Source of the DNA: a virus
Virus record (IMG/VR): IMGVR_UViG_3300036820_000017
Coordinates: 1 to 64,000 of that record
Reading direction: 5' to 3' (one strand)
Length of the DNA stretch: 64,000 bases
Shown: positions 3,320 to 64,000 of the stretch, piece by piece
Numbering within the stretch: position 1 is the first letter of the stretch
Layout of the letters: every line of letters starts with the position of its first letter
Notes under the pieces: generated by a model
The model's database searches: none
Told to the model about the DNA's origin: nothing
What the model saw: only the letters and a program-made list of their open reading frames with translations
Translations under genes and position numbers: made by a program

Positions 3320-3534
3320 TGAACGCGACCGTTCACGGGCTGCAGGTCCCCGCCGTCGAGCGGTACGTGTCGCGCGCCGAGCTGGCTGAAATGATGGGCG
3401 TCAGCGTGAAGACGATCGACCGCCTCGTTGCCGCCGGGATGCCCTCCGAAACCTGGGGCCTGCGAACCCGGCGGTTCCTGGCCAGCCGAGCCCTCCAATG
3501 GGCCCGCGCGAGAGACGGAGGAGACGACCAGTGA
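3319..3534 (+). CDS. Excisionase-like HTH DNA-binding protein
   Basis: The 71-residue product contains a MerR/excisionase-type helix-turn-helix, with YVSRAELAEMMGVSVKTIDRLVAAGMPSE-like spacing at residues 16-45. That fold binds DNA as a small winged helix. It directly precedes and overlaps the integrase gene, the usual place for a recombination directionality factor. A role in excision is therefore likely, though a transcriptional regulator is possible. Confidence 0.75.
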   Translation: MNATVHGLQVPAVERYVSRAELAEMMGVSVKTIDRLVAAGMPSETWGLRTRRFLASRALQWARARDGGDDQ

Positions 3535-4646
3535 CCATCGCCAAGCTGCCATCCGGCCGCTACCGCGTCCGCGTCTGGCATAACGGCCGCGACGTCGCCG
3601 CAGCTCCCATCCTCGGACTCCCCGACGGCTACTCGTGGGAGCGAAAGCGCGGCGCTGGCGGCGCGCTCGAGGCCGAGGCCAAGGCCCGCGAGATCCTCCG
3701 CGGCAACGCCGCCCAGGCCGTCACCGTCGCCGACTTCCACCGCCGGTGGACGACCGACCCGCTGTTCCTGCGTCCCAAGCAGTCCACCAACATCCACAAC
3801 GAGGAGCGCACCCGCGCGTTTGTCGCGCGGTACGGCAGCCTCCTGATGCGTCAGGTCAGCGACCAGATCGTCGCCGAATGGGTCGCCGGCGGCCAGCGCA
3901 ACAGCACCGTGCCTGCGCTGCGCGCGATGTTCAACGACGCCGCGAGCGCCAAGGCTGGCCGCCTGGTGCTGATCAACCCGTTCGCCGACCTCGGGATCCG
4001 CAAGACGAAGGGCAACAAGGCCAAGCGACCCCCGTCGCTCGAGCAGATGGAGAACATGGTGCTCACCGCCCGGCAGATCACCCCTCCGAGCTTCGCCGCC
4101 TACCTCGAGTTCGCGTGCCTCACCGCTGGCCGGCCGAGCGAGCTTGACGCGTTGCGGTGGGCCGCCGTCCGGTTTGACGACGGCGAGGTTGATCTCGTCG
4201 AGCAGTGGAACGCCAAGGTCCGCGACTTCACCGAGCCCAAGTACGGCCCCTACACGGTCGCGCTCGTCGACCGTGCCCGGAGGCTGCTTCAGGGAATGAA
4301 GCGTGCCGCTGGCGCCGGCGAGTTCGTGTTTAGCACCGACCGCGGCACCCACTACACCCCGAGCGCGCGACACCATCACTGGGATCGCGTGCGGTGCTCG
4401 ATCGGGACGCCCGACCTGACCCTCTACCTTGCCTCCCGCCACTTCTTCGCGAGCTACTCGCTCAATGTTCTGGATCTCCCGCCGCACGTCATCGCGGAGC
4501 AGCTGGGGCATAAGGATGGCGGCAAGCTGATCGTCCAGCTCTACGGTCATCCCGACGCGAAGATTGCGCGACGGCAGATCCGCGACGCGTGGGATACCGC
4601 TGCGACGGTGCGGCATCTGCGGTCCGTGAAGGATGACTTGGCGTGA
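3531..4646 (+). CDS. int: Tyrosine integrase
   Basis: GTG 3531 overlaps the upstream stop and has a GGAGGAG Shine-Dalgarno, giving 371 residues. An N-terminal AP2-like arm-binding segment (SGRYRVRVWHNGRD), a core-binding region and a C-terminal catalytic domain are visible. Catalytic candidates are R201 (GRPSELDALRW), K237, R303, H327 (LGH) and nucleophile Y338. The usual box II His three residues before R303 is Leu here (LASR instead of HxxR), which is odd but seen in some divergent members. The protein should integrate the phage at attP/attB. The attP candidate lies immediately downstream. Confidence 0.9.
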   Translation: MTIAKLPSGRYRVRVWHNGRDVAAAPILGLPDGYSWERKRGAGGALEAEAKAREILRGNAAQAVTVADFHRRWTTDPLFLRPKQSTNIHNEERTRAFVARYGSLLMRQVSDQIVAEWVAGGQRNSTVPALRAMFNDAASAKAGRLVLINPFADLGIRKTKGNKAKRPPSLEQMENMVLTARQITPPSFAAYLEFACLTAGRPSELDALRWAAVRFDDGEVDLVEQWNAKVRDFTEPKYGPYTVALVDRARRLLQGMKRAAGAGEFVFSTDRGTHYTPSARHHHWDRVRCSIGTPDLTLYLASRHFFASYSLNVLDLPPHVIAEQLGHKDGGKLIVQLYGHPDAKIARRQIRDAWDTAATVRHLRSVKDDLA

Positions 4647-7631: not shown

Positions 7632-8321
7632 GTGGACGACGATCTGGTCATCCGGCATGTCCGGCTGTGCGAGTGCGGGAAACGCGCCGGGCACGACAGC
7701 ATCTGCCGACCCGGCCGCGCACCAGCCGGCCTTGACCCCGACCCCGAAGTCCAGCCCGTCGACCCCGAGGTCGAGAAGGAGTTCGCGCGCCGCAGCGAAG
7801 GCCGGTTCGAGCGGCGCCGCCAAACGTTCGACGCGGAACGCCGCGAACGCAGAGCGACCACCGACACGTTCGAGCTGCACCGCCACGCGAGAGAGCGCGC
7901 GCTCGTGCTCAGCACCGTCGGCGGCAGCGCAATCAGCCGCGGCGCGCCGAACAGCGAAAGCCAGCGGATCGGCCCGGGGCGCCAACAGCAACTCGACGAC
8001 GACCCACGGTGGCGCGAACACTGGGATGTCATCCGGTCGCGGCTCGGCCGGGTGCTCGACCTGCTCGACGAATACGAGGGGCACGGCACCGTCGCCGGCA
8101 CCACACAGCTGCTCGGCGTCGAGAAGAAAAAGCGGGTGATCCGCGACGGCGCGGGCCTGTCACCGCTCGCCGTCGTGGAGAAGCTCGGGCGTGACATCAC
8201 CGGCAGTCCGCGGACGGTGGCGCTCGACCGCGAGGAAGCGGGCGTCTGCGTCCGCGACGGCACCCACCCGCACGAAGGGTGCCGCTGCAAGATCTGCCGC
8301 CAACACGAGCCCGGCATTTAG
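7632..8321 (+). CDS. Hypothetical protein with Cys motifs, 229 aa
   Basis: The N-terminus has CECGKRAGHDSIC and the C-terminus has HEGCRCKICRQH, so zinc-binding clusters flank a highly charged helical middle (residues 45-110). A second helical part (REHWDVIRSRLGRVLDLLDEYEG) follows. No family is recognised. It is driven by a GCCGATAG box and precedes the sigma-factor genes. Confidence 0.6.
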   Translation: MDDDLVIRHVRLCECGKRAGHDSICRPGRAPAGLDPDPEVQPVDPEVEKEFARRSEGRFERRRQTFDAERRERRATTDTFELHRHARERALVLSTVGGSAISRGAPNSESQRIGPGRQQQLDDDPRWREHWDVIRSRLGRVLDLLDEYEGHGTVAGTTQLLGVEKKKRVIRDGAGLSPLAVVEKLGRDITGSPRTVALDREEAGVCVRDGTHPHEGCRCKICRQHEPGI

Positions 8322-8398
8322 GACTAGGCATTTTCGGTGCGCCCGTACCCTGTTCTGTCGCTGGGCAAACTTCGCCCGCAGCCTCGCCGGCAAGCCGC

Positions 8399-8818
8399 AT
8401 GACCGCCCCCGCTTCCGGCTCACGCTACCCGCAGCTGCGCGACCTCGCCTGGTGGCGTCAGCACGGCAGCCTGAGCAACATCGCCATTTCGGAGATGCTC
8501 GGCGCTGGCCGCGAGACCGTCCGTCTCGCGCGCCGCGACATCGGCATCGCCGCACTCCCTCGCGGTCGCGCCCGCGGCGCAACGATCCGCGCAGCCACCA
8601 CGCACACCCTGGAGTCCATCGAGGACATCCTGGTGGCTCGCATCAGCCGAGAGCGACGCAAGCTCTCAGCCACCGAGGATCTCCTCGTCGCTCGCCTCCG
8701 CGCGGCGCACGAAGCGCGCGCCGCGGGCGACGACCCCGCTTACGACGACGCGCTACTCGGCGTCAGCAGCGCCGCCGCGCTGATCGTCGACCACCGCCGC
8801 AAGCTCAGGGCCGCGTGA
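8399..8818 (+). CDS. HTH DNA-binding protein, 139 aa
   Basis: From ATG 8399 the product has WWRQHGSLSNIAISEMLGAGRETVRLARRDIGI near residues 18-50, a helix-turn-helix. A long helical region follows (SIEDILVARISRERRKLSATEDLLVARLRAAHEARAA). The layout, HTH then coiled coil, resembles small regulators and small terminase subunits, but a separate small-terminase candidate lies at 9767. Earlier in-frame starts are low complexity and were not used. Confidence 0.6.
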   Translation: MTAPASGSRYPQLRDLAWWRQHGSLSNIAISEMLGAGRETVRLARRDIGIAALPRGRARGATIRAATTHTLESIEDILVARISRERRKLSATEDLLVARLRAAHEARAAGDDPAYDDALLGVSSAAALIVDHRRKLRAA

Positions 8819-8821
8819 CCC

Positions 8822-9037
8822 GTGGGCCTCACGTTCCCGACCGGCCACCGCGGCTACCTCGCGCCGCCCGGCATGCCAGACCGAGCGAGCCACTGCCAGT
8901 GCGAACGCGGACCGATGCTCCTCCGCGGCCACGACGCGTGCCTGAACTGCGGCCGCTACCCCAAGGACACGATCGCCGAGACATGGACACAGCGAGCCCA
9001 AGAGATCGCCGCCGGCCGCGCGAAACGCAAACGCTGA
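8822..9037 (+). CDS. Small Cys-rich zinc-ribbon-like protein, 71 aa
   Basis: GTG 8822 starts a product with CQCERG and CLNCG spaced about 15 residues apart, fitting a zinc ribbon. The C-terminus is basic (AGRAKRKR). It overlaps the start of the sigma factor gene by 55 bp in another frame, suggesting coupled expression. Confidence 0.55.
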   Translation: MGLTFPTGHRGYLAPPGMPDRASHCQCERGPMLLRGHDACLNCGRYPKDTIAETWTQRAQEIAAGRAKRKR

Positions 9038-9756
9038 CCGCCGCCGACCGCGACCAGCTTGTCGTCGACCACCGGTATCTCGCCGAAACGCTCGCGTGGC
9101 GCTACGTCCAGCGGGTCCGCGGCGGAATCGACGTCGACGACCTGATCTCCGACGGATACCACGGCCTGTCACGCGCCGCCCGCACCTACGACCCGTCGCT
9201 CGGAGGCTTCCAGACGTTCGCGTGGCCCTGCATCAAAGGCGCAATCCTCGATGGTGTCCGCCGCCGCGACCACGCCAGCCGCGGCCTGCGAAGCGCGGAC
9301 CTACGGATGCAGCGCGCGCGCTACCGGTTCGCGTCGCGTGAGCACCGATTCCCGACCGACCGCGAGCTCGCCGACGAACTCGGGTGGACAGCCACGCAGG
9401 TTCACAAGTGGCGCACCCGACTACTCGCCGCCGACCCACTGTCGATCCACGCGCCGGCACCCAGCGAGGATCCGGACGGCATCCCGATCGAGGACGGCGA
9501 CGCGATCCGCGACCCGTCCGCCGACACCGAAGCCGACGCGCTCGCAGCGATCGCTGCCGGGGAGGCCAGCGAACTCGCGCGGCTCGTGCAACTACTTCCC
9601 GGCCGCCAGCAGCAGGTGCTGCGCCTGTACTTCTGGGGTGAGATGACGCTCAGCGAGATCGGCGACCTGCTCGGCGTGCATGAGTCGCGGGTCTGTCAGT
9701 TGAAGACTCTCGCGTTGAGCCGCCTGCGGGTCCTGATCGAGCCGCTGGCGGCGTGA
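8983..9756 (+). CDS. FliA/WhiG-like RNA polymerase sigma factor
   Basis: From ATG 8983 the 257-residue protein shows region 2 at about residues 26-97 (IDVDDLISDGYHGLSRAARTYDP...FQTFA...AILD), region 3 at about 119-146 and region 4 at about 199-250. The region 4 HTH (LSEIGDLLGVHESRVCQLKTLALSRLR) is characteristic of FliA, SigD and WhiG. Known members recognise a GCCGATAA/T -10 box. Four genes in this window have a GCCGATA box right before their start. It lies just upstream of the terminase genes, so a role in switching to middle or late expression is likely. Confidence 0.88.
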   Translation: MDTASPRDRRRPRETQTLTAADRDQLVVDHRYLAETLAWRYVQRVRGGIDVDDLISDGYHGLSRAARTYDPSLGGFQTFAWPCIKGAILDGVRRRDHASRGLRSADLRMQRARYRFASREHRFPTDRELADELGWTATQVHKWRTRLLAADPLSIHAPAPSEDPDGIPIEDGDAIRDPSADTEADALAAIAAGEASELARLVQLLPGRQQQVLRLYFWGEMTLSEIGDLLGVHESRVCQLKTLALSRLRVLIEPLAA

Positions 9757-32231: not shown

Positions 32232-33188
32232 ATGAGCTTCATCGCCGACAAGGTCTTCCCGACCGTGCCGGTGCTCAAAGAATCGGACCTGGTCGCGATC
32301 TACGACCGGGAGTTTTTCTTCCGATTCGGGACTATGCAGGCCCGCGGTCTCGGCGCACGGCCCGCCGCGACCGGGTACGAGATCAAGCAGGCCCGCTACC
32401 AGATCACCGAGTGGGCCGAGGAGCACCTGATCGACGATCGGGTGCGCCAGAACGCCGACCAGCCGCTTGACCCGGATCTCGCCGGGATGCGGCTGCTGAC
32501 CACCCACGCGCTGATTCACCGCGACACGCTCTGGACCCAGCAGTTCTTCAACACCGGGATCTGGGGCACCGACTGGACTGGCGTCGCATCCGGCCCGACC
32601 GGCAACCAGTTCACGCAGTGGGACCAGTCGAACTCCGACCCGATCCAGTTCGTCCGCAACCGCATCAACGATGTCGGCGGGAAGACCGGCTACCGGCCGA
32701 ACGTTGGGGTCATGGGCCCCACCGCGTTTGAGGCCGCCCTAAATCACCCGGATATTGTTGACAGGCTGAAATACACCCAGGGTCCCGCCGGATATCCCGG
32801 CTCGGGAGCGGACGCTGCGAAGAACGTGCTCGCGGCACTGTTCGGCCTGGATCGCATCGAGGTGCCTTACTCGGTGTCGAACACGGCACACGAGGGGCAG
32901 GCGGAGAGCACGGCGTACATCGTCACCCCGACGTCGATGCTGCTCGCCTATGCGGCTGCGGCACCGTCGATCACCGAGCCGTCCGCTGGCTACACGTTCG
33001 CGTATACCGGCCTGTTGCCGGGTGTGACGAACGCGTTCGGTGGCGTGATCGAGCGTGGCCGCGAGGAGCTGGCGCACAGCGATGTGCTGCAGATCCGTGC
33101 CGCGTACGACATGTTGCAGGTCGCGACCGAGCTGGGTGAGTTCTTCCAGACGGTCGTGTCGTCGTCCTATGGCGAGGCGACGTTCTAG
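32232..33188 (+). CDS. Major capsid protein
   Basis: The frame from ATG 32232 (318 residues) reads MSFIADKVFPTVPVLKESD and continues with conserved features of HK97-fold capsid proteins with FIADKVFP-type N-arms. Examples are GYRPNVGVMGPTAFEAALNHPDI, VLAALFGLDRIEVPYS and GGVIERGREELAHSDVLQIRAAYD. Conserved N-arm sequence continues upstream in the same frame without a start, so the true product probably begins at 32147 through a frame change. It forms the icosahedral shell. A strong hairpin follows its stop. Confidence 0.88.
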   Translation: MSFIADKVFPTVPVLKESDLVAIYDREFFFRFGTMQARGLGARPAATGYEIKQARYQITEWAEEHLIDDRVRQNADQPLDPDLAGMRLLTTHALIHRDTLWTQQFFNTGIWGTDWTGVASGPTGNQFTQWDQSNSDPIQFVRNRINDVGGKTGYRPNVGVMGPTAFEAALNHPDIVDRLKYTQGPAGYPGSGADAAKNVLAALFGLDRIEVPYSVSNTAHEGQAESTAYIVTPTSMLLAYAAAAPSITEPSAGYTFAYTGLLPGVTNAFGGVIERGREELAHSDVLQIRAAYDMLQVATELGEFFQTVVSSSYGEATF

Positions 33189-33210: not shown

Positions 33211-33244
33211 CGTTGGGCGAAACCCTCCGGGGTTTCGCCCAACG
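33211..33244 (+). terminator. Very stable hairpin after major capsid gene
   Basis: CGTTGGGCGAAACC (33211-33224) pairs perfectly with GGTTTCGCCCAACG (33231-33244), and a further C-G pair closes a TCCG tetraloop of the stable UNCG class. There is no T tract, so it may act as a partial terminator or an mRNA-stabilising 3' end for the abundant capsid message. Confidence 0.65.
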
Positions 33245-61644: not shown

Positions 61645-62418
61645 GTGAGCACGATCGAGTTCGACAACCGCGCGCCCGAGAACATCAAGATCGTCGTGGT
61701 CTCCGACCGCGCGTTCCGGCTGTGGTTCAACGCCTGCTGCTACTGCAACCGCAACCTGACCGACGGCCGCGTGCCCGCCGCGCTAATCCAAGGTCTTAGC
61801 GTCACCGCAACCAAGCGGACCGTCGGCGAACTACTCAACGCAAGCCTGCTCGAACGCCTCGACGGTGACACCTTTCTAGTGCACGACTACCTCGACCACA
61901 ACCCATCCCGAGCTGATGTCGAGGAGGAGCGCCGACGCAGCCGCGAGCGCACAGCGAAGTGGCGTTCGGGCCAGGATGTGACACGTCACCAACGCATCAC
62001 GAACGGCATACGTGACGCACACGTAACAATCGCAGACAAAGAAGAGAGTCGTACTACAGAGATAGATAGAGCTACAGAAAAGACTCTCCTCGTCTGCGAT
62101 TCGCTTGCGGCTCAGATCCTTGACCGTGACCCGCAGGCCAGTGTGGCGCCACGCAACGACCGGTGGCTGCGGGAAGCGCGGCTGTTGCTCGAACGCGATC
62201 AGCGTGACCCCGAGCTTGTCATGCAGGTGCTGGCGTGGTTGAAGACGGACACGTTCTGGTCGACGGTCATCCTGTCGACACCGAAGCTGCGTGAGAAATT
62301 CACTCAGCTTGTCGCGAAAATGCGCGCCGCTGAAGGCAACGGGACCGTCGGTCTTGGTGGACGCCGTGAGACGCCGAGCGATCTTCTGCGAGCGATGCGA
62401 GGGGACGCGGCGGCATGA
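61645..62418 (+). CDS. Replication initiator / replisome organiser candidate
   Basis: The 257-residue protein has a winged-helix-like N-terminus (DRAFRLWFNACCYCNRNLTDGRV, VTATKRTVGELLNASLLERLDGDTFLVHDYLDHN) like phage replisome organisers. An AT-richer linker follows, then a DnaD-like C-terminal part (WLREARLLLERDQRDPELVMQVLAWLKTDTFWSTVILSTPKLREKF). Such proteins bind the phage origin and recruit the helicase loader. A large inverted repeat lies within the linker-coding DNA, as in lambda O. Confidence 0.7.
   Translation: MSTIEFDNRAPENIKIVVVSDRAFRLWFNACCYCNRNLTDGRVPAALIQGLSVTATKRTVGELLNASLLERLDGDTFLVHDYLDHNPSRADVEEERRRSRERTAKWRSGQDVTRHQRITNGIRDAHVTIADKEESRTTEIDRATEKTLLVCDSLAAQILDRDPQASVAPRNDRWLREARLLLERDQRDPELVMQVLAWLKTDTFWSTVILSTPKLREKFTQLVAKMRAAEGNGTVGLGGRRETPSDLLRAMRGDAAA
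61978..62101 (+). other. Replication origin candidate inside initiator gene
   Basis: AATCGCAGAC (62028-62037) is the exact complement of GTCTGCGATT (62092-62101), and GAGAGTC (62044-62050) of GACTCTC (62082-62088). Together they form a long hairpin with an AT-rich 31-base loop. Just upstream lie CGTGAC/CACGTCAC-like elements, including GTGAC-AC-GTCAC at 61978-61989 and CACGTAAC near 62019, that could be initiator sites. The base composition is visibly lower in GC than its surroundings. Confidence 0.55.
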
Positions 62419-63062
62419 CTTGGACTCCGGAAGAGCAACGCGAGATAGGGACAGCGTTCCTGGGTTCGTGGCCGGGGACGATGACGGCGTGGGGCAAGGA
62501 GGCGATCGCTGCCTATATCGGCGAGCTTGAGGCGCGCGGCCTAGAAGCGCGGGAGGTGCTGGTCGCGGTTCGTACGTGGCCCGCGGGGAGCGACTTCCCT
62601 CCATCGGCACCGAACCTCGCGGCTGCTGCGCGACGCGATCCGAGCAAGCCGACGTTCGATGAGGCGATCGGTCTTATCCGCGCTGCGCTCCGGGCGTGGA
62701 ACCGGCCGCTGACCGGCAACTTCGCGAACGAGGCTGAGATGCTCAAGGCCCGGGCGCAGCAGGTCACCAACCGCACCCGCGACGTGCACCCACTCGTCGC
62801 GGCGTTCATCCATCGCCGCGGGATTGAGCAACTGCAGAAGGACATCGCCGAGCTGGGTGACGACGAGTGGGGCGGCGCGCGCCGGGCGGAACTGCGCAAG
62901 GCGTGGGAGGAGCACTGCGAGGCATTCGATGGCCGCGAGGCGGCGGCCCTGGTGGCAGGCCGGCGCGGCCAGTTGGGCCAGTTCGACCCGCTGGCCGTGT
63001 TGAACATCAAGCCGGAGCGGGCGCTTCCGTCCGGCGGACCTACTGAAGGAGTTCCAGCATGA
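62415..63062 (+). CDS. Helicase loader candidate
   Basis: The N-terminal 75 residues (GTMTAWGKEAIAAYIGELEARGLEAREVLVAVRTWPAGSDFPPSAPNLAAAARR) match the pattern of SPP1 gp39/DnaI-N-like helicase loaders: a helix bundle, then a FPPSxxxL-type segment. The rest is charged helix. It directly follows the initiator gene with a four-base overlap, the usual order for loader genes. It lacks an AAA+ ATP site, so it would resemble the non-ATPase loaders. Confidence 0.6.
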   Translation: MTWTPEEQREIGTAFLGSWPGTMTAWGKEAIAAYIGELEARGLEAREVLVAVRTWPAGSDFPPSAPNLAAAARRDPSKPTFDEAIGLIRAALRAWNRPLTGNFANEAEMLKARAQQVTNRTRDVHPLVAAFIHRRGIEQLQKDIAELGDDEWGGARRAELRKAWEEHCEAFDGREAAALVAGRRGQLGQFDPLAVLNIKPERALPSGGPTEGVPA

Positions 63063-63424
63063 GCGCGACGTTGACCCGTCCCCCCGATGATCTTCGGACG
63101 CTGCCGCACGCGGCGCCGGAGCGTTCGCTTGAGCAGCGTCAGGCGGCGTTGGCGCATGCCAACGAGGTCCGCTGCCAGCGAGCGCGGCTCAAGCGTGACC
63201 TGAAGGCCGGGCGGCAGTGTGTTCTGGATCTGGTGTGCGATCCGCCGGAGTGGGCGGCGAACATGAAGCTGATCGATCTCCTGATCGCTGTCCCGAAGTT
63301 CGGTTCGGTCAAGGTTCACAACGTGCTGCGGCGCTGTCAGATCTCGCCGAGCAAGACGCTCGGTGGGATGAGTCAACGGCAGCGTGACGAGCTCGTCGGC
63401 CTGCTCATCTGGAGGCTCGGATGA
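63059..63424 (+). CDS. Actinobacterial integration host factor-like protein
   Basis: The 121-residue protein has the mIHF pattern: a basic N-terminal helix (ANEVRCQRARLKRDLKAGRQCVLDLVCD), then an S13-like H2TH part (MKLIDLLIAVPKFGSVKVHNVLRRCQIS). It ends with KTLGGMSQRQRDELVGLLI, matching the family's LGGLG-type DNA-binding end. mIHF bends DNA and supports integration in actinobacteria, for example with mycobacteriophage L5 integrase. A phage-encoded copy could free recombination or replication from the host factor. Confidence 0.8.
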   Translation: MSATLTRPPDDLRTLPHAAPERSLEQRQAALAHANEVRCQRARLKRDLKAGRQCVLDLVCDPPEWAANMKLIDLLIAVPKFGSVKVHNVLRRCQISPSKTLGGMSQRQRDELVGLLIWRLG

Positions 63425-64000
63425 CGCCAGGGCAGCTATCGCTGCTGCTCGGTCCGGCCGAGCTCGAGCCGGTGCCGTGGGGTCCGTCACGCCGGTTGCC
63501 GCTGCTGCGGGTCGTCCCGTCGTGCGAGACGCACTCTCACGCTGTCGCGGAGCCGTCGGGCCGCCGCGTCTCCAGGGTCTGTCAGCCGGGCTACCACAAG
63601 GGCCGCAAGCCGGGGAACGCCGGCAACACCTATCCGCCCGAGCCGGTCACCGTCAAGGATGTGCAGCGGCTGCTCGCCGCCACCGGCCACGGTTACGCCG
63701 GCACCCGCGACCGAGCGCTGTACACGTTCCTGTGGGGCACCGGCGCGCGGATCGCCGAGACGCTCGACCTGCTGCCGCCCGAGATCGACCTTGAGGAGCG
63801 GACGGTCACGATCCTGCGCGGGAAGGGCGGGAAGCGTCGCACCGTTGGCCTGAGCACGCAGACGATCGAGGAGCTTGAGCGGTGGTTTGACCGCCGCGCC
63901 GATCTCGGGCTGACGGACGCGCACCCAGTCTTCCCGGTCATCAGCCAGCCGACGGTCGGCAAGCGCCTGTACGCGTCGTGTGTCCGGGAGCAGTTGCGGG
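63421..64000 (+). CDS. Tyrosine recombinase, third copy (cut by window end)
   Basis: ATG 63421 overlaps the preceding gene's end and the frame stays open to the window edge. After a linker-like N-terminus it reads VKDVQRLLAATGHGYAGTRDRALYTFLWGTGARIAETLDL, with the catalytic Arg in ARIAE, then TVTILRGKGGKRRTVGL with the catalytic Lys. This is a XerC/D-type catalytic domain. Boxes II and the nucleophile Tyr lie beyond the window. It seems to lack a full core-binding domain. Confidence 0.8.
   Translation, partial: MTPGQLSLLLGPAELEPVPWGPSRRLPLLRVVPSCETHSHAVAEPSGRRVSRVCQPGYHKGRKPGNAGNTYPPEPVTVKDVQRLLAATGHGYAGTRDRALYTFLWGTGARIAETLDLLPPEIDLEERTVTILRGKGGKRRTVGLSTQTIEELERWFDRRADLGLTDAHPVFPVISQPTVGKRLYASCVREQLR

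Follow-up and report, generated by a model that had tools for sequence, protein, structure and literature searches.

A putative replication origin within the linker code of a viral initiator gene and a related arrangement in actinophages

The Rep protein of the Staphylococcus plasmid pSK41 binds, with its winged helix, to repeats in the central part of the gene that encodes it; its linker is encoded by the origin, and its C-terminal domain is DnaD-like (PMC5703833). The origin of phage lambda lies in the middle of gene O, where an AT-rich region with purine asymmetry follows the iterons (PMC7466680, PMC5043065). The winged-helix initiator TrfA of RK2 binds one strand of the DNA-unwinding element (DUE) through tandem repeats, and the RK2 work also considered a hairpin on one strand of this element (PMC4081077). 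For the cluster A mycobacterial prophages Miko, Rachaly, and Jeeves, the origin was inferred to be within or next to repA (PMC7157519). The locus described here, located in the 64,000-nucleotide stretch of viral DNA that we refer to as the window, very probably contains an origin of the lambda O and pSK41 Rep kind.

The window comprises bases 1–64,000 of a 65,490-base virus record (IMG/VR IMGVR_UViG_3300036820_000017), in which no terminal direct repeats were found. A gene on the plus strand at positions 61645–62418 is predicted to encode a 257-residue replication initiator with a winged-helix N-terminus, a disordered linker, and a DnaD-like C-terminus, based on PHROG profiles, an AlphaFold2 model, and fold matches to viral proteins. 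The code of the predicted winged-helix DNA-binding domain (about residues 20–90; positions 61702–61914, plus strand) was delimited by pLDDT and the conserved motif TDG...HDYLDH, and the region was modelled confidently, with pLDDT of 85–95 in blocks across residues 21–100. The linker has pLDDT below 50 at residues 121–136 and is predicted to be disordered. The helical C-terminal domain (about residues 170–232; positions 62152–62340, plus strand), assigned from PHROG matches, pLDDT, and alignment with the TDPFWSTNILS segment of Gordonia phage DobbysSock, has pLDDT above 90 over most of its length. The PHROG matches were to replication initiation proteins (E 2e-24), to DnaD-like helicase loaders (phrog_2514, E 1e-17, covering residues 110–232), and to O-like initiators (E 7e-13); the C-terminal half is the part that resembles the DnaD-like loaders and O-like initiators. 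Structure matches among viral proteins included replisome organizers, actinophage helix-turn-helix proteins, and a Replication initiator A family protein. Searches of the PDB by sequence and by fold returned no significant match, and no Pfam match to the RepA_N domain was found at E 0.1.

The initiator gene is part of a replication and recombination module on the plus strand that also encodes an Erf-like annealing protein, a PD-(D/E)XK exonuclease, and HNH and VRR nucleases, and continues beyond the initiator with an orphan open reading frame, an H2TH (S13-like) protein, and a tyrosine integrase. The orphan frame, directly 3' of the initiator gene (62415–63062), has no family matches above the cut-off and no relatives in viral contigs. 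In several relatives, its place immediately after the initiator gene is occupied by a gene for a DnaB-like helicase; no DnaB-like gene was found across the record analysed here. The small protein encoded at 63059–63424 contains an S13-like H2TH domain (PF22525, E 8.5e-8), adjoins the integrase, and is possibly an actinobacterial integration-host-factor-like protein. Integrase-like genes, each with PHROG integrase matches, are located at both ends of the window (3498–4643 and 63421–63999). Elsewhere in the window, the C-terminal part of the protein encoded at 8191–9753 is similar to RNA polymerase sigma factors (phrog_351, E 2e-30), and a perfect 15-bp inverted repeat with a 4-nt loop at 33211–33244, shortly after the major head protein gene (32232–33188), is probably a transcription terminator.

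The stretch from 61978 to about 62101, within the code for the linker of the initiator, is very likely the origin of phage replication. This reading is based on the coincidence of several window-wide extremes, namely the AT-richest 60-mer, a purine tract, the best two-tier stem, a unique cluster of GTNAC sites, and the best match to a (CAGAKA)n repeat, and on the conservation of the arrangement at the same place in relatives. The original prediction had put an origin inside the initiator gene, and that part of it is borne out by the same evidence; its choice of a hairpin as the defining origin element is not, as discussed below. Positions 61978–62101 correspond to codons 112–153, which is the linker region where the hairpin had been placed, and the lower local GC content described there was confirmed (48%, compared with 62% for the initiator gene and 67% for the window).

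The candidate iterons begin with GTGACACGTCAC, a pair of inverted GTGAC/GTCAC elements at 61978–61989. They continue on the plus strand with ACGAAC (61999–62004), a weak candidate proposed from its spacing 11 bp before the next one, ACGTGAC (62010–62016), and ACGTAAC (62021–62027), which follows the previous one after 11 bp. Four GT[ACG]AC sites occur within 50 nt only at 61978–62027 in the whole 64 kb, and this cluster provides repeated candidate initiator sites inside the gene. The GTGAC/GTCAC elements to which the original prediction had drawn attention upstream of the hairpin, at 61978–61989 and 62010–62016, were rightly chosen as probable initiator sites. The iterons of the window are few and imperfect, and a search of the region for 19-bp inverted-repeat iterons of the lambda O type found no such repeat family. 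Clustered GTAAC sites are likewise present in L140, the nearest of the relatives taken from bacterial genomes.

The candidate iterons adjoin an AT-rich, strand-asymmetric region that is a candidate for the site of unwinding. The AT-richest 60-mer of the 64 kb is located at 62024–62083 and may be the DNA-unwinding element. A degenerate, purine-rich (CAGAKA)n tract spans 62033–62080 on the plus strand; its purine content (38 of 52) ranks ninth among 63948 overlapping windows. When both strands of the 64 kb were compared with the (CAGAKA)n model derived from relatives, the tract was the best match at lengths of 24, 30, 42, 48, and 60, and tied for first with one other bin at length 36, in a test that was not blind, because the unit was picked after seeing the relatives and the tract of the window. 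The GT[ACG]AC and (CAGAKA)n tests were both designed after inspection of the region, and the AT-richest 60-mer was found without the use of any motif. The purine tract starts 122–144 nt after the winged-helix anchor, and the arrays of relatives typically start after 130–170 nt. A perfect tandem array is absent from the window (p 0.78 in the per-locus test that the relatives passed).

The comparison of the original prediction with lambdoid phages was apt, but pSK41 Rep is closer, since it shares the winged-helix N-terminus, the linker encoded by the (here candidate) origin, and the DnaD-like C-terminal domain (PMC5703833). The locus differs from the RepA_N plasmid origins in belonging to a phage, in the missing Pfam RepA_N match, and in its AT-rich purine tract, hexamer-like repeats, and hairpin. 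As in lambda, the middle of the initiator gene contains candidate iterons and, after them, AT-rich DNA with purine asymmetry. However, the iterons of lambda are 19-bp inverted repeats, whereas those here are short GTNAC sites with a spacing of about 11 bp between the last three; furthermore, no partner similar to lambda P was identified, and the relatives contain short tandem arrays. The iteron plasmids with TrfA-type initiation resemble the locus in their winged-helix initiator, iterons, and strand-specific repeats within the unwinding element, but RK2 has 13-mer repeats and an initiator of another family, and here the elements are inside the initiator gene. The cluster A RepA is likewise an actinophage initiator with an origin placed within or next to its gene, but it belongs to another RepA family, as described there, and no repeat motifs were found in that study (PMC7157519).

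Relatives were gathered from GenBank phages, IMG/VR, and bacterial genomes, and some 109 phage and prophage loci were tested by comparing the 300 nt after the winged-helix code with other 300-nt stretches of the same locus. The identity of the closest relatives is only 30–41%. Single-protein scans found no close relatives in viral contigs (initiator, frame 62415–63062, and exonuclease) or in genome contigs (initiator alone). Among 36 relatives, the 300-nt region contained the top short tandem repeat of the locus (p ≤ 0.05) in 83% (Fisher 8e-23), iteron-like repeats in 44%, GC dips in 39%, and short-loop stems in 36%. The corresponding values for 73 further relatives from IMG/VR were 75%, 60%, 60%, and 34%; a few phages are present in both sets (L022 and L093, for instance, are both Typha). 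The relatives share ancestry, and the combined p-values therefore overstate independence and surprise; the consistency of the array position is the firmer point. An array run of at least 8 was present in 72 of 90 de-redundified loci, starting at a median of 147 nt after the anchor (interquartile range 130–168).

About 130–170 nt after the winged-helix code, most relatives have AT-rich DNA together with iterons and a tandem array that is short and strand-asymmetric. The array units include ACAGAG (34 loci), ACCCG and CCCGT (12), and many that occur once. According to the list of units, 25 of the 72 arrays have units of 5 or 7 bp, and are therefore not codon repeats. Furthermore, the initiator gene stops before all or part of the elements in TripleJ (L005), L013, L019, Propionibacterium phage E1 (L042), and Arthrobacter liuii (L153). 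The 5- and 7-bp units and the genes ending before the array show selection on the DNA, not on the protein. The locus L057 contains GTCAC and GTAAC sites followed by CAGATA repeats in the AT-richest stretch of its genome, and the AT-richest stretch of DobbysSock is likewise at this spot of the initiator gene. In the initiators of L011, L012, L146, and L044, an HNH-like insertion separates the winged-helix domain from the linker; the test region of L011 and L012 was moved by hand past it, and in these two loci iterons and a 16–17-bp hairpin follow the insertion. In five loci (L078, L086, L094, L097, and L117), an AT-centred palindrome of the GAAGAATATTCTTC type is located where the tandem array would be.

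The nested inverted repeat of the window is as originally described. Its 10-bp outer arms, AATCGCAGAC (62028–62037) and GTCTGCGATT (62092–62101), are exact complements, as are the 7-bp inner arms GAGAGTC (62044–62050) and GACTCTC (62082–62088), all given on the plus strand, and they enclose a 31-nt loop (62051–62081) with 35% GC. About a quarter of relatives have a hairpin abutting the array, with a median gap of 2 nt among the 25 loci with any hairpin there, but it is of another kind. Across 90 linkers, the plus strand contains 24 stems of 7 bp or more whose loops are C(TNC)G or C(TNNC)G, and the minus strand contains none (0.18 expected); there are 3 + 2 such stems elsewhere in 462 kb. The excess of these loops is partly circular, because the pattern was noticed in these data before counting; the circularity does not explain the strand bias or the 8.6-fold enrichment of hairpins in general (8 bp or more) in the linkers of relatives. 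On the opposite strand the loops read C(GNA)G or C(GNNA)G, which we take to be of the extra-stable DNA mini-hairpin type. One example of that type is CGCGAAGCG (PMC10527192). The C(TN1-2C)G hairpin is mostly absent from loci with GMA1-type initiators, and the window likewise lacks it; no short-loop hairpin was detected there (p 0.72). The stem of the window should not be called the conserved hairpin, because it is of another design, with a long loop and no conserved counterpart. The original view of this stem as the defining element of the origin finds no support: the conserved hairpin of relatives has a short loop and comes immediately after the array, and in the linkers of relatives, stems of 9 bp or more with long loops are enriched only 1.9-fold.

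It is slightly more probable than the converse that the region is an origin in which the nested inverted repeat is a functionless by-product of a purine- and AT-rich stretch, a reading that refines the origin assignment and does not compete with it. In addition to the unconserved design and the low enrichment of long-loop stems, its fold energy is ordinary relative to synonymous-codon shuffles (106 of 1000, not significant), and first-order Markov sequences of 64 kb contained a nested 10+7 pair in 3 of 40 cases. However, the site is the strongest of all GC-corrected 90-nt folds across the window, its two-tier 17-bp stem is the best of the window (attained in 1 of 1277 windows), an equally good stem was rare among synonymous-codon shuffles (2 of 200), the pair appeared in only 3 of 2000 Markov sequences at the local 1.1-kb scale, and linker hairpins are enriched across relatives. 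According to these chance counts, the hairpin is real and locally unusual, yet expected somewhere in about one in thirteen sequences of the size of the window. The chance that the nested inverted repeat is a working part of the origin is about even or less.

It is unlikely that the hairpin acts in mRNA, by controlling translation or decay of the initiator message or as part of a transcript needed for origin activation. The gene is transcribed through the hairpin, which folds strongly as RNA (-30.3 kcal/mol, z = -3.8; z = -2.5 when folded as DNA), and the loop-specific hairpins of relatives are confined to the coding strand. However, scans found neither an Rfam match nor a terminator-like site, the hairpin is in the middle of the gene and distant from the start codon, and in several relatives the initiator gene ends upstream of the iterons and array. 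Autoregulation is common among winged-helix proteins, and the iterons could equally serve as operators for repression of the operon by the initiator that it encodes, with the origin located elsewhere. We consider this quite improbable, since the AT-richest DNA, the strand-asymmetric arrays, and the abutting hairpins would be left unexplained, and a search limited to the sigma-70 consensus found no promoter-like match at the site. Least probable, and largely excluded, is that the repeats are just a consequence of encoding a peptide that is disordered and repetitive: the linker is predicted to be disordered and some arrays encode ET repeats, but 5- or 7-bp units, arrays outside the coding frame, iterons in both orientations, and loop-specific hairpins on one strand only are at odds with it.

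For the reading of 61978–62101 as the origin, a mechanism of initiation can be proposed by analogy. The winged-helix domain would bind the GTNAC iterons at 61978–62027 and bend the DNA. The initiator would then melt the adjoining AT-rich, strand-asymmetric tract at 62024–62083, and initiator molecules may hold one strand of the hexamer-like tract as single-stranded DNA. The nested inverted repeat may fold the melted strand so that the purine tract is presented in the loop, which is a guess. The DnaD-like C-terminal domain would recruit the replicative helicase, probably that of the host, because the record yielded no DnaB-like gene. Iteron binding, melting, strand capture, and helicase recruitment each have a precedent or proposed precedent in pSK41 Rep (PMC5703833), TrfA (PMC4081077), or lambda (PMC7466680, PMC5043065). 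The analysis shows the anatomy, the position, and the conservation of the arrangement among relatives; binding, melting, and helicase recruitment are what we infer. The cumulative GC skew of the record has its minimum at 61909, which is consistent with the assignment, but it was rejected as proof of an origin and carries little weight, because eight relatives follow no GC-skew rule at the initiator and two have a maximum there. In G002 and G003 (L045 and L047), the cumulative GC skew, once detrended, has a peak and not a minimum at the initiator.

The array and iteron arrangement shared by these actinophages seems to be undescribed, a provisional statement because the literature covered was open-licence full text; the only work on an origin found there concerns a different RepA family. 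We tentatively propose, with slightly less than even confidence, that many actinophage RepA-like initiators share an undescribed origin design. It would consist of clade-specific iterons about 11–12 bp apart, a strand-asymmetric array of 5–7-bp units, and, in a subset, a hairpin confined to one strand. The loops of this hairpin, C(TNC)G or C(TNNC)G, correspond on the other strand to C(GNA)G or C(GNNA)G, the presumed extra-stable DNA mini-hairpin type, and the hairpin would serve as a single-strand landing site for a primase or helicase loader. As a divergent member of this group, the window would have a long-loop stem presenting the purine tract in place of the mini-hairpin. The origins of integrating actinophages with RepA-like initiators are apparently unmapped in the literature searched, and the GMA1-type initiator has 408 matching records, most of them over the N-terminal domain only. 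The arrangement predicts the position of the origin for hundreds of sequenced phages, many of which have laboratory hosts. Iterons, array, and hairpin vary independently of one another in this family, which would make it useful for addressing how winged-helix initiators melt DNA and how helicase is recruited.
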